Shown: positions 27,013-32,624 of the stretch, in pieces
Layout: every line of letters starts with the position of its first letter
Position numbering within the stretch: the first letter of the stretch is position 1
Assembly (NCBI GenBank): GCA_016931415.1
Contig: JAFGEW010000081.1
Location: forward strand, 1-64,000
Direction: 5' to 3'
Source of the DNA: Verrucomicrobiota bacterium
GTDB taxonomy: Bacteria; Auribacterota; JABMQX01; JAFGEW01
Length of the DNA: 64,000 bases
Translations under genes and position numbers: made by a program
Notes under the pieces: generated by a model
Databases searched by the model: none
Told to the model about the DNA's origin: nothing
Seen by the model: the letters and a program-made list of their open reading frames with translations, nothing else

Positions 27013-27762
27013 TCAGCGCCCGGGATCGCGGCCGGGGACGTGGATGTTGAGCAAGTCGAGCAGCTCCTCTTCGCTCACGCCGAGCTCTTCGACGTTCATG
27101 TCGTCGACGTGGATCTCGACGTTCTCGTCGTCGATGAGACTGATGGGCGCCTCGTCGTGCCGGGCGACCAGCTCATCGAGCTCGGCCTCCGCCTCGTCGA
27201 AGAGCGGCTCGGGCGTGGTCATGGCAAACCGCGCCGGGACCGGTCGCGATGCGGACCCTGTGTGGGGCGTTTCAAGCGCCGCCGGGCGCGCGCGTTCCTC
27301 GACGTGGGGGAAGCGGGCGGCCACGTCGATGAGCAGGGCGATCTCGCCCTCGAACTCGACGAGGCGGTACTCGTAGACGGTCAGCTCGGTGGCGGTGAAG
27401 TAGCGCAGCACGTCGCGCAGGCGACTCTCCAGGCGCGGCACGACAAGCGCGAGGCGCGGCGGGCGCGTCAGGTCAATGTCGACGGCGGGGAAGAGCCGCT
27501 GCATGAGCGGGGCGTTGTCGATCATCCAGTGCAGGCGCCGCAGCAGCTCATCGACGACGGCGCCGGGTTCGCTCACGTGCGCCAGGACAGCGACGAGCCG
27601 GCCGTCGGGCGCCAGCGCGAGCACGTCGACGCCCTCGTCGGCGCGGAACTCGAACGAGGTGGCCAGCACCTCGTGGCGCGGCTCGGCGGCGAGGAAATGC
27701 TCGCGCAGAAACGGCAGAAGCATCGCCTTGCTCGTCAACGGCACCGGTCTGCAGAGTCTCAT
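27013..27762 (-). CDS. Protein of unknown function in the ParA-like operon
   Basis: This 249-residue cytoplasmic protein has an alpha/beta N-terminal domain (about 10-165) with the ordered segments FEFRADEGVDVLALAPDGR and LVAVLAHV. These recall the core of nuclease-like folds, but I cannot identify catalytic residues with confidence. The C-terminal 90 residues are acidic and probably disordered. They end in repeated Glu/Asp-rich short helices (ENVEIHVDDMNVEELGVSEE). The ATG overlaps the stop of the MinD-like gene (ATGA), so the two are coupled. I do not recognise the family. Confidence 0.6.
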   Translation of the reverse strand: MRLCRPVPLTSKAMLLPFLREHFLAAEPRHEVLATSFEFRADEGVDVLALAPDGRLVAVLAHVSEPGAVVDELLRRLHWMIDNAPLMQRLFPAVDIDLTRPPRLALVVPRLESRLRDVLRYFTATELTVYEYRLVEFEGEIALLIDVAARFPHVEERARPAALETPHTGSASRPVPARFAMTTPEPLFDEAEAELDELVARHDEAPISLIDDENVEIHVDDMNVEELGVSEEELLDLLNIHVPGRDPGR

Positions 27763-28520
27763 CGGTTCCTTGCTCTCCCTCCGGGCTCGAACTCCTGCGC
27801 CACGGCGGCGGCGATGCCGCGCAGCCGCGCGACGAGACATGCGTCGTCGCTGTCGACGACGGCGGGCCTGCGGCGCAACACGGACCGGCCCAGCGCGTCG
27901 CCCGCAGCGAGGAACCCGCAGTAGGCGGGAAAGACGCTGAGCCGGCGGCCGAGCACATCGAGGAACTGGTCGAACACGCCGCGGGCGGCCGCCTCGTCGG
28001 GCACGCCGGTGACCACAATACCAAGTTGAAGCGGCGAATGCCAACCCGCCGTTCGTTTGACCAGCGCGTAACCGTGGATCAGCTCGCGCGGCTCGGCCGA
28101 CAGCACGAGCAGCACGCGCGAGGCTTCCATAGGCGGCACGTCGCCTTCGAACAGCTTGGACGGCGCATTGACGAGCACGTAGTCCCAGGCCGTGCCGGGG
28201 GCCTTGGTCTCGTCGAGGGTGTCGAACAACGCCAAGGCGCCGTCAGGCACCCCGCTCATCTGGAGCCGCAGCGTAGGCTGGTTCGAGTCGGCATCGACAA
28301 CGGCGACGGTGTAGCCGACGCGGCTCAGCTCGAGGGCGACATTGCAGGTGACAACCGATTTGCTGATCACGTCGCAGCCGGAAACGACGAAGAGCACGGG
28401 GTACGGCGTCGCGGGGGCGTCGGCCGCCGCCGGCGCGTGCTGGGCCGCCGGCTGCCGTCTGGAGAGAAAGAGGTGCGATACGGAATCGATTCCTCTCCCG
28501 TGGTGTCTGCGTGCACTCAT
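27759..28520 (-). CDS. MinD/ParA-like protein with a degenerate P-loop
   Basis: This 253-residue protein has the fold pattern of MinD/ParA ATPases: a first strand and P-loop-like turn (FVVSGCDVISKSVVTCNVA), then VAVVDADSNQPTLRLQM (switch region) and WDYVLVNAPSKLF. The canonical KGGVGKT/S P-loop is replaced by GCDVISKS. The first signature Lys is lost and only the second Lys-Ser remains, so ATP binding may be altered or absent. The N-terminal 45 residues are Ser/Arg/Ala-rich. I chose the ATG at 28520, preceded by GAGAG. It lies 79 bp downstream of the ParA-glycogen-binding fusion. Confidence 0.65.
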   Translation of the reverse strand: MSARRHHGRGIDSVSHLFLSRRQPAAQHAPAAADAPATPYPVLFVVSGCDVISKSVVTCNVALELSRVGYTVAVVDADSNQPTLRLQMSGVPDGALALFDTLDETKAPGTAWDYVLVNAPSKLFEGDVPPMEASRVLLVLSAEPRELIHGYALVKRTAGWHSPLQLGIVVTGVPDEAAARGVFDQFLDVLGRRLSVFPAYCGFLAAGDALGRSVLRRRPAVVDSDDACLVARLRGIAAAVAQEFEPGGRARNR

Positions 28521-28599: not shown

Positions 28600-29664
28600 T
28601 CATGTGATCTCGAAGACCGAGTTGTGTCCGCCGAAGGCGTCGGCGACCTTGACGGGATTGCGCGGATCCTCGATCCATCGCCCATCGACGACAAAGCGGT
28701 ACTGGTAGGTGCCCGGCGGCAGGCTAAGGTAGCGCTCCCAGGCCTCGGACTGCTTGTCGCACGGCTCGGGCTGCCAGTCGTTGAATGTGCCGGCCAACTG
28801 GACCTGGGCGGCTTGGCCGTCCGCGTAGACGAAGCGTACGCGGTCGCCTTCGATCTCGGGCATGAGAACCTTGTTGAACGCCTCCGAAACCTGTTTCGTA
28901 TCCATCTTGGCCTCCCCCAGCAACACCTCGCTCGCCAGGGACATGTGGTCCTCGGCGGCGATGGAGGCCGGGCTATAGTCGAGCACCGACTGGCCGAACC
29001 CGGCCGCCTCGCGCACGCGCACGGTGCGGTGGATCACGGTATGGAAGCACTTCTCGCCGAAATGCTCGCGCACCTCCTCGATGACCTCGCGCGTCAGCCG
29101 CGTGCGGCGGTCGTAGATGGTGGCCAGCGCGCGCACGTCGATGTCTTGGCCGGTATGTTCCTGGACTACCTCGACAGTCTCCATGAGCTTGCTCAGGCCG
29201 TGGAGCGAAAAGAAGCTGCCCTCGATCGGCACAATGAGCTCACCGGAGGCGACCAAAGCGTTGAAAGTAAGAAGGCCGATGCTCGGCGGGCAATCGATGA
29301 TGATGTACTGGTAGCCGTGTGGGTCCAGCACACAGATCGCCTCGCGGAGCCGCTGCTCGCGACCCTCGACGCCGGCCAAGTGCTGCTCGACGGCGCTCAG
29401 GCGCACCTCGGCCGGGGCGAGATCGAGGTTGTCGCCGATGTTGCGGATGATGCTGTCGAGTGATCGCGTCTGCGCCAACACCTCGTACATCGACCCGTTG
29501 AGCCCCTCGTGCTCGACGCCGAGGGCGAGCGTAGAATGGCCTTGGGGATCGAGGTCGATGAGGAGAGTCCGCCGCCCCTTTGCGGCTAGACACGCAGCCA
29601 GATTGACAGCCGTCGTGGTCTTCCCACAGCCGCCCTTCTGGTTGGCGATGGATATAATGCGCAC
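28600..29664 (-). CDS. ParA-family ATPase fused to an AMPK-type glycogen-binding domain
   Basis: This 354-residue protein joins two domains. Residues 1-260 are a complete ParA/Soj ATPase with the deviant Walker A (QKGGCGKTTTAVNLAA), LLIDLDPQGHST and IIIDCPPSIGLLTFNAL. Residues 270-353 match the AMPK beta glycogen-binding (CBM48/E-set) domain, with AGTFNDWQPEP, GTYQYRFVVDGRW and DPRNPVKV. The two carbohydrate-stacking Trp positions (in NDW and DGRW) are kept, and the lysine after QY is Arg. No ParB gene is adjacent. The role could be polymer-surface or chromosome positioning that senses glucans; this is inference. A strong promoter lies upstream. Confidence 0.88.
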   Translation of the reverse strand: MRIISIANQKGGCGKTTTAVNLAACLAAKGRRTLLIDLDPQGHSTLALGVEHEGLNGSMYEVLAQTRSLDSIIRNIGDNLDLAPAEVRLSAVEQHLAGVEGREQRLREAICVLDPHGYQYIIIDCPPSIGLLTFNALVASGELIVPIEGSFFSLHGLSKLMETVEVVQEHTGQDIDVRALATIYDRRTRLTREVIEEVREHFGEKCFHTVIHRTVRVREAAGFGQSVLDYSPASIAAEDHMSLASEVLLGEAKMDTKQVSEAFNKVLMPEIEGDRVRFVYADGQAAQVQLAGTFNDWQPEPCDKQSEAWERYLSLPPGTYQYRFVVDGRWIEDPRNPVKVADAFGGHNSVFEIT

Positions 29665-29751
29665 CGCCGCCTCCTTATGGCTGAATCCCGCCTGGGCAAC
29701 TCGCGCACCGTGCCAGTAACGCCGCCGGAGGTGAAGGAGACGTTCCAGGTT

Positions 29752-29780
29752 ATTAGAAGGCTCTTCGCCCCTTGTGTCAA
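29752..29780 (-). promoter_or_regulatory. Strong sigma-70 promoter of the ParA-like operon
   Basis: On the minus strand a perfect TTGACA (29780-29775) lies 17 bp from TCTAAT (29757-29752), five of six matches to the -10 consensus. Transcription would start near 29745, about 80 nt before the ATG. This is the best sigma-70 promoter in the window. Confidence 0.72.
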
Positions 29781-29878
29781 GCGGTTTCTTGGCGTTTTGT
29801 CCTTTGTGTGCAGCCGGTTCGCATCCTGCAACACGGGCAAGGCGCGGACCGCCCGCGTGGACGTGGGGTCGCGCGCGC

Positions 29879-29908
29879 TTGCCCGCCGGCAGTGGCCTGC
29901 CCTATACT
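29879..29908 (+). promoter_or_regulatory. Putative sigma-70 promoter of the two-component pair
   Basis: TTGCCC (29879-29884) and TATACT (29903-29908) are 18 bp apart and diverge from the ParA promoter. Transcription would start near 29915 and leave about 41 nt before the ATG at 29956. Confidence 0.45.
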
Positions 29909-29955
29909 GCAGTGGATACGATCGGCCCACCAAGAGACCCCGCGTTGACGGGGCA

Positions 29956-31202
29956 ATGAACATGGCGACGTTTTGGGACAAGCTGATCGAACGGTTTGAG
30001 CGACTCGATCCCGAGCGGCGCGAGCGCTACCTGGCCGACTTGGCCCGGGAGCGCGGGTTCCTCCAGAGCGTGTTCGACACGATCGAGGACGCGCTCATCG
30101 TGCTCGACGCGCGGCGGCGCATTGTCTTTATCAACCGGGCTGCCAGGCACCTGCTCGGCATCGCCGCCGGCGACCCGGTGAACCGGCCGCTGCTCAAGTA
30201 CATCGCCGACGGCCGGTTGCTGGACCTGTTCGGCCGCGAGGCGCAGGATGCAATGGAGAGTCGCGTCGAGGCCCAAGGCGCGTTCAACACGGAGATCGAG
30301 GTTCGCCATCCACGCCCTATGGTGTTGCGTGTCACTGTATTGCCGCTGCGCGGCACAGGCGGCTCGCCCAGCCTGGGAACCGTCATCGTCATGCATGACG
30401 CCACTGCCGAGCGCAAACAGCGGCTCGCAGCGTTCCAGTCCGAGAAACTCGGTGCCCTTGCCACGTTGGCGGCCGGGGTGGCGCACGAGATCGGCAATCC
30501 GCTCAACTCGCTGGCGATCCACATGCAGTTGCTCGAACGCGAGATCGCCAGACTGAAGCCGGGTCGCCAGCGCAACGAGCTGGCGGCGCGGGTCGAGACG
30601 AGCCGCCAGGAGATCGAGCGGCTCGACGGGATCATCCGGCAGTTCCTCGGCGCCGTACGGCCCTCGAAGCTCGATTACCGGCCCGTGCAGATCAACGAAC
30701 TGCTTGAAGGGCTGCTCGAGTTCAACTACTACGAGATCGCCGCGCAGCAGATCGGCATCGAGAAGCACTACGACCCGGCGATCCCGCGCGTGCTCATGGA
30801 CGAGGCGCAGATCAAGCAGGCCTGTCTCAATATCATCAAGAACGCCGTGCAGGCGATGCCCAAGGGCGGGCTGCTGACCGTGACGACCACGCGCGAGCGC
30901 GATGAGATTGTCGTGCGCTTCGCCGATAGCGGGGTCGGCATGACCGAAGAGCAGATCGGGCGCATCTTCGACCCGTTCTACACGACCAAGGACCGCGGCT
31001 CGGGCCTCGGGCTGATGATCGTGCACAAAATCATCACAGATCATAATGGGCGCATCGAGGTCGAAAGCGAGCCGGGGCGCGGCACGCGGGTGACCGTCGT
31101 GCTGCCGGTGGTCGAGACGCGGCGCCGGCTCATTGAGGACGCAACGTCGAAGGCGCCGCCGTTCGAGCCCGAGGTGTCCGAACGGCCGAAACGAAAGAAC
31201 CC

Positions 31203-31206
<4 letters not shown>
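29956..31206 (+). CDS. PAS-domain sensor histidine kinase, NtrB-like
   Basis: This 416-residue soluble kinase has an N-terminal helical region, a PAS domain (about 25-150), a dimerisation helix with the phospho-accepting His in AAGVAHEIGNPLNSL (near 178), and a complete ATPase. The ATPase shows the N box (NIIKNAVQAMP), G1 (DSGVGM), F (DPFYTTK) and G2 (GSGLGL). There is no membrane segment, so it senses an internal cue through PAS. The product should phosphorylate the adjacent sigma-54 regulator, whose ATG overlaps its stop. Confidence 0.9.

Positions 31207-32624
<1,418 letters not shown>

Follow-up and report, generated by a model that had tools for sequence, protein, structure and literature searches.

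We observe that a single gene of the window (the whole stretch of 64,000 nucleotides that was analysed) joins a catalytically complete ParA ATPase and an AMPK-type CBM48 domain in one reading frame, and that this fusion, gene A, is the first member of a three-gene operon, A-B-C. The best reading of this arrangement is an uncharacterised positioning system of the ParA/MinD type, in which gene B would replace ParB and an α-glucan would be the cargo, the anchor or the signal. A first-pass annotation of the same DNA had recognised the fusion, but overlooked that it represents a widespread family and that it heads an operon. The relevant features are:

29677-32624, plus strand: pair of a PAS-histidine kinase and an NtrC-type sigma-54 response regulator, oriented divergently to the ParA-CBM48 operon
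29670..29676, minus strand: Shine-Dalgarno sequence AAGGAGG of gene A, 5 nt upstream of the GTG (from the sequence)
28600..29664, minus strand: gene A, ParA-CBM48 fusion; intact frame of 354 aa, GTG start at 29664, stop at 28600-28602
28921..29664, minus strand: ParA/Soj ATPase domain of gene A, residues 1-248 (Pfam AAA_31 and conservation)
29614..29640, minus strand: deviant Walker A motif QKGGCGKTT, residues 9-17, invariant in the fusion alignment
28819..28920, minus strand: linker of gene A, residues 249-282
28606..28818, minus strand: AMPK-type CBM48, residues 283-353, with W297, R323, W330 and N348 (Pfam AMPK1_CBM, PDB 4yef/1z0n, conservation)
27759..28520, minus strand: gene B, 253 aa, ATG at 28520, 79 bp after gene A; ParB-like N-terminal peptide and a MinD/FlhG/FleN-fold body without the P-loop lysine
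28461..28499, minus strand: putative docking peptide GRGIDSVSHLFLS of gene B, residues 8-20 (sequence and model, helix 11-18)
27013..27762, minus strand: gene C, 249 aa, its ATG at 27762 overlapping the gene B stop (ATGA); EndoMS/NucS-like PD-(D/E)XK fold, catalytic Lys missing
27043..27072, minus strand: C-terminal helix of gene C, residues 231-240, a short 'LTxEE..F..L'-like end

The fusion gene and its two domains

Pfam assigns AAA_31 to residues 1-176 of gene A (E 4.4e-53, 180 bits, cut-off 27) and AMPK1_CBM to residues 283-353 (E 3.9e-14, 53 bits, cut-off 26.8); the latter domain occurs only once in the window's genome. The nearest solved structures are Soj/ParA 8ray and 1wcv for the ParA half and the AMPK beta-1 glycogen-binding domain (4yef, 1z0n, E 4e-12) for the CBM half. 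The intact frame and both Pfam matches bear out the initial claim of a complete ParA joined in frame to a CBM48-like domain. The domain-architecture search that had been proposed as a check was carried out by scanning named genomes with only the CBM as query, and ParA and CBM share one frame in 73 of the 80 loci obtained. Residue conservation was counted over 65 complete fusions.

In the ParA half, K10, C13, K15, T16, D37, D39 and D124 are identical in 65/65 fusions, which carry the motifs of a ParA/Soj Walker-type ATPase, namely KGGxGKT(T) with the signature lysine, the D-x-D motif 2 and the Walker B Asp. Residues 216/218 are basic, with K/R in most members of the 65-fusion alignment, and may mediate non-specific DNA binding. 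From the conserved residues we infer a working ParA that would undergo ATP-driven dimerisation and bind the nucleoid. In ParA of M. xanthus, Y81 and E117 form the pocket for the arginine of ParB (PMC12462528). According to our own mapping, they correspond to Y60 (59/65) and E93 (61/65) of the fusions, where the pocket appears to be kept. Compared with Soj/ParA of ParABS, the fusion has the deviant Walker A, motif 2 and Walker B complete, Y60/E93 matching the ParB-arginine pocket, and a partner peptide resembling the ParB N-terminus; it differs in its C-terminal CBM48, in a His within D-x-D-P-Q-x-N (64/65) and in forming a distinct branch. This His stands in place of the usual Asn, also in the window's fusion, while a second Auribacterota subgroup (L015, L024, L025) retains the Asn. 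L055 denotes the gene also listed as L024, and it is not accompanied by a gene B.

In the CBM half, W330 (W133 in AMPK) is found in 65/65 fusions, as is W297 (W100 in AMPK), the latter count being biased because W297 was part of the scan pattern. Both tryptophans named in the first-pass annotation as glucan-stacking positions are hence indeed kept. Position 323 (AMPK K126) is R/K in 65/65 and R in gene A, and N348 (AMPK N150) is conserved in 61/65. The equivalent of T148 is not kept (G346 in gene A), and the position of L146 mostly holds a hydrophobic residue instead. In AMPK, mutations of W100, K126, W133, L146 and T148 each lowered glycogen binding (PMC2642990). The fusion CBM thus shares fold family, Trp pair and Lys/Arg126 with the AMPK beta-subunit domain (CBM48, 1z0n, 4yef), but it is attached to a ParA, has no kinase and has lost T148; its glycogen binding is a prediction.

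Gene B and its ParB-like peptide

The N-terminus of gene B reads MSARRHHGRGIDSVSHLFLS. In 29 of 31 non-Phycisphaerae loci, the gene that immediately follows the fusion begins with a peptide of this kind, whose consensus-like form is (L)GRGLEDISHLFLS (26 recognised by pattern, and L031, L079 and the window on reading the sequences; of the other two, L034 is a doubtful case and L055 lacks the peptide). Its strict form occurs in 20 of the 31 downstream-adjacent genes versus 7 of 7266 other ORFs. Within the window's genome, SHLFLS of gene B is the sole in-frame instance of its kind, and a broader search for the docking peptide there gave no ORF with the exact motif beyond gene B. The first half of the peptide resembles the ParA-binding ParB N-terminus of the same genomes: the window's own ParB has ALGKGLEALI (MARKALGKGLEALI), and in Zixibacteria ALGRGIGAII of ParB compares with KRLGKGLEDISHLFLS / RLGKGLEDISHLFLS of gene B. 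For partners of ParA/MinD ATPases, a positively charged N-terminus has been described as the acting part (PMC10241942). Judged by sequence, a partner with such a charged N-terminal peptide accompanies the fusion in the 29 of 31 non-Phycisphaerae loci, and gene B probably encodes a ParA-activating partner.

The first-pass statement that no ParB gene is adjacent stands, since the only ParB_N match of the genome lies on contig C29; neither gene B nor gene C has a Pfam ParB match, and unlike ParABS the system is without ParB or parS. The impression of a ParA without a partner was nevertheless wrong in substance, because the operon holds gene B, a likely activator, and gene C. An otherwise orphan ParA thereby gains a likely partner.

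Behind the peptide, gene B has a MinD-fold body (predicted model pLDDT 80; Foldseek FlhG 4rz3, E 9e-13, probability 1.00), with BcsQ also among the fold matches; the peptide itself is modelled as a helix over residues 11-18 with low confidence. The protein is very divergent (13-24% identity). Its P-loop site reads SGCDVISKS in the window, and KGGxGKT is found in 0 of 16 homologues. It resembles FlhG/FleN in fold (4rz3, E 9e-13), but lacks the P-loop lysine, carries the ParB-like peptide in place of the FlhG N-terminus, and is 21% identical.

The body behind the peptide varies between loci. It is the gene C fold in Rokuibacteriota, a response regulator in L094, and an HTH-coiled coil protein in L043, L089 and L091, the one in L089 also having TM and RodZ_C; in L031, B and C are merged into one protein of 563 aa. 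A peptide that is kept while the bodies change is the pattern expected of a docking element, and here at least four different bodies carry one putative ParB-like activation peptide.

In Phycisphaerae, gene B is missing beside the fusion, and a search with the L045 partner gave no gene B homologue elsewhere in the Phycisphaerae genomes covered. The linkers of these fusions (e.g., L042, L050, L082) contain a conserved segment, LADQLESISATADELL / QQRHEFVNSLADQLESISATADELL, which bears a faint likeness to the LExIS core of the partner peptide; that it acts in cis is a guess. The conserved neighbours of Phycisphaerae fusions are mostly antisense shadows and unrelated genes, with nothing constant among them.

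Gene C

Gene C has no Pfam match. In its predicted model (pLDDT 78, pTM 0.60), the core adopts a PD-(D/E)XK fold as in the mismatch endonuclease EndoMS/NucS, aligning with 2vld (Z 10.9, 107 aligned, rmsd 2.5) and 5gke (Z 10.7; Foldseek E 8e-5). In contrast to EndoMS/NucS, the catalytic ExK is replaced (e.g., by VLAH, IDVA or ISLS), though the Asp is often kept in the 13 sequences inspected, and the nuclease fold looks catalytically dead. Further differences are the location in an operon with ParA and an extra C-terminal helix peptide; many gene C homologues share this short helix-forming 'LTxEE..F..L'-like end.

Proposed function of the operon

We assign a probability of roughly 0.45 to the operon being a spatial organiser in which A cycles on ATP, its CBM48 holds an alpha-glucan and B substitutes for ParB. 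A would alternate between a nucleoid-bound ATP dimer and ADP forms, while its C-terminal CBM48 would hold the glucan, most likely intracellular glycogen. The basic amphipathic N-terminal peptide of B may dock at the ParA dimer interface and stimulate ATP hydrolysis; the inactive MinD-fold body of B, together with gene C, would then connect to whatever holds B. Through repeated ATP binding and hydrolysis, the latter triggered by B, glycogen could be distributed or partitioned along the nucleoid, or the B/C complex could be brought to glycogen. Glycogen might accordingly be carried along the nucleoid, provide the surface where A recruits B/C, or gate the cycle as in AMPK. With moderate confidence, we regard the first of these as the best single reading. 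Points that weigh against it are the loss of the T148 equivalent, the strong divergence of B, the missing gene B in Phycisphaerae, a ligand domain placed on the ATPase, and the partial co-occurrence with glycogen genes, none of which neighbours the fusion in the loci read. The broader proposal, that a ParA-driven machine disperses or partitions glycogen in many phyla, with the cargo domain on the ATPase and a complex of pseudo-MinD and nuclease folds in place of ParB, is tentative and somewhat unlikely. If true, it would be the first case of a storage polysaccharide being actively segregated.

The cargoes of known ParA/MinD systems are DNA, carboxysomes, chemotaxis arrays and flagella; to our knowledge, no such system handles a storage polysaccharide. 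The papers searched gave no description of a ParA joined to CBM48, as the first-pass annotation had supposed for this layout, nor of a ParA system for glycogen. We class the fusion system as a variant of the ParA/MinD positioning kind. With McdAB and the other systems for carboxysomes, chemotaxis and flagella (PMC10241942) it has in common that a dedicated ParA-family ATPase is paired with a neighbouring partner, which probably activates it through a basic N-terminus. Unlike in the known systems, the ligand domain resides on the ATPase and not on the partner; moreover, the partner body is a degenerate MinD fold, a third protein with a nuclease fold is present, and an alpha-glucan is the putative ligand.

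A possible link to glycogen

Standalone CBM48 proteins with 56-58% identity to a fused CBM of Phycisphaerales are encoded in operons with a GT5-like synthase, GH57, alpha-glucan phosphorylase (DUF3417) and GH77 4-alpha-glucanotransferase. These close relatives, together with the conserved Trp and basic residues, make glucan binding by the fusion CBM likely. Given that the nearest standalone CBM48 proteins belong to operons for glycogen metabolism, the earlier idea of glycogen positioning or sensing gains indirect support and is plausible, as is a dedicated glycogen-handling role of the fusion. In the loci read, no convincing glycogen genes stand beside the fusion.

Across genomes, the fusion co-occurs with glycogen genes in part. 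In the window's phylum, GlgA occurs in 6 of 6 fusion-bearing genomes, the window's own included, versus 17 of 38 without the fusion, by a hand count uncorrected for kinship. In the class of genome G059, hand counts at E < 1e-12 give a GT5-type synthase match in about 49 of 125 fusion-bearing genomes versus 11 of 73 without fusion, while phosphorylase is absent from 4 of 20 tested fusion-bearing genomes versus 0 of 20 without fusion. In Phycisphaerae, the link to the GT5-type synthase is partial and a link to phosphorylase is absent; these counts do not support strict co-occurrence with glycogen there.

Small CBM48 proteins were seen in several settings. Those of about 125 aa in Phycisphaerales glycogen operons (L121:4359-4745 and L122:3917-4282, both minus strand) are possible scaffold or priming subunits of glycogen. 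Others have lysine-rich N-terminal tails (e.g., MKKKTTKKVVKKAVKKAV) and occur in Auribacterota (L020, L022, L023) as well as about 1 kb upstream of the fusion in L043, L089 and L091; their sequences suggest that they could link glucan to nucleic acid.

When csrA is mutated in E. coli, glycogen accumulates at the old poles, where it has been proposed to keep out the chromosome (PMC4836754). The spatial handling of glycogen by cells is a question that the fusion family makes directly testable.

Possible sensing and other cargo

AMPK employs the same CBM as a glycogen sensor (PMC2642990), and the operon might likewise be a glycogen-responsive switch, in which glucan on the CBM alters the ATPase or dimer state of A and thereby controls B and C, e.g., by holding back a transcription activator or a signalling protein in the manner of FleN. 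The FlhG/FleN fold of gene B, the NtrB/NtrC-like pair with its sigma-54 activator divergent from A (29677-32624), the response regulator headed by the peptide in L094 and response regulators near several loci fit such a switch. The NtrBC pair, however, is not conserved as a neighbour, gene B is without the P-loop lysine that FleN has, and A retains all ATPase and ParB-pocket residues, as befits a cycling ParA. We consider the switch unlikely.

It is less probable still that A positions envelope, polysaccharide or cell-shape machinery, with the CBM binding proteins or a different, extracellular-type glucan. The HTH-coiled coil bodies in L043, L089 and L091, the TM and RodZ_C of L089, and the glycosyltransferase or nucleotide-sugar epimerase genes near L030, L061 and L090 would suit such a cargo, as would the match of gene B to BcsQ, a ParA relative in cellulose secretion. 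Against it, the sugar-binding residues are kept in 65/65 fusions, close relatives of the CBM belong to cytoplasmic glycogen operons, and no secretion gene is a constant neighbour. Positioning with an α-glucan as ligand remains our preferred reading.

Anti-phage defence was also considered and rejected; PADLOC gave weak P-loop matches for A only and none for B or C.

Spread and descent of the fusion family

Seven full-length homologues with 40-47% identity were found in five other genomes of the window's phylum. The fusion layout extends to at least nine phyla, with members in Planctomycetota (mostly Phycisphaerae), Auribacterota, Zixibacteria, Gemmatimonadota, Rokuibacteriota, Myxococcota, Thermodesulfobacteriota, Omnitrophota and Acidobacteriota, and in Thiogranum (Pseudomonadota). 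In a class-wide sample around L042, a hand count gave a fusion-sized frame with CBM in about 120 of 198 genomes. The linker measures 31-48 aa in most non-planctomycete fusions and 75-245 aa in Planctomycetota, including Phycisphaerae.

In the ParA-domain tree, a branch of support 99 separates the 65 fusions from 14 Soj-like ParAs of the same genomes, a small set picked by similarity. This bears on whether gene A is a normal ParA for chromosome or plasmid partition whose C-terminal domain is incidental. The complete ParA domain, 42% identical to the housekeeping Soj, speaks for that view. Separate Soj and ParB proteins are nevertheless present in the same genomes (Soj of the window's genome on contig C124), which argues that chromosome segregation is not the fusion's job; the fusions branch apart, and no ParB is adjacent. 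A plasmid or phage origin found no support either: phages gave no CBM match and plasmids four weak ones, which coincide with annotated hydrolases or glycogen-binding proteins or with no annotated feature. A partition role is very improbable. The local assembly artefact that the first-pass annotation named as a possible refutation, i.e., a joining of two genes by assembly or annotation, can be set aside in practice, for although the window comes from a fragmented MAG of 134 contigs, the same fusion occurs in 73 independent loci, several in chromosome-titled records (L042, L043, L085, L094).

Two further ParA frames were seen. A Zixibacteria genome has a second fusion-sized ParA frame (L125, G065:C210:3313-4080) of 408 aa and 54% identity, which may be a paralogue. 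In Phycisphaerales, a Soj-like ParA (L147, G059:C1:2734855-2735613) is part of a frame of about 1182 aa, which continues into cadherin/Ig-like repeats.
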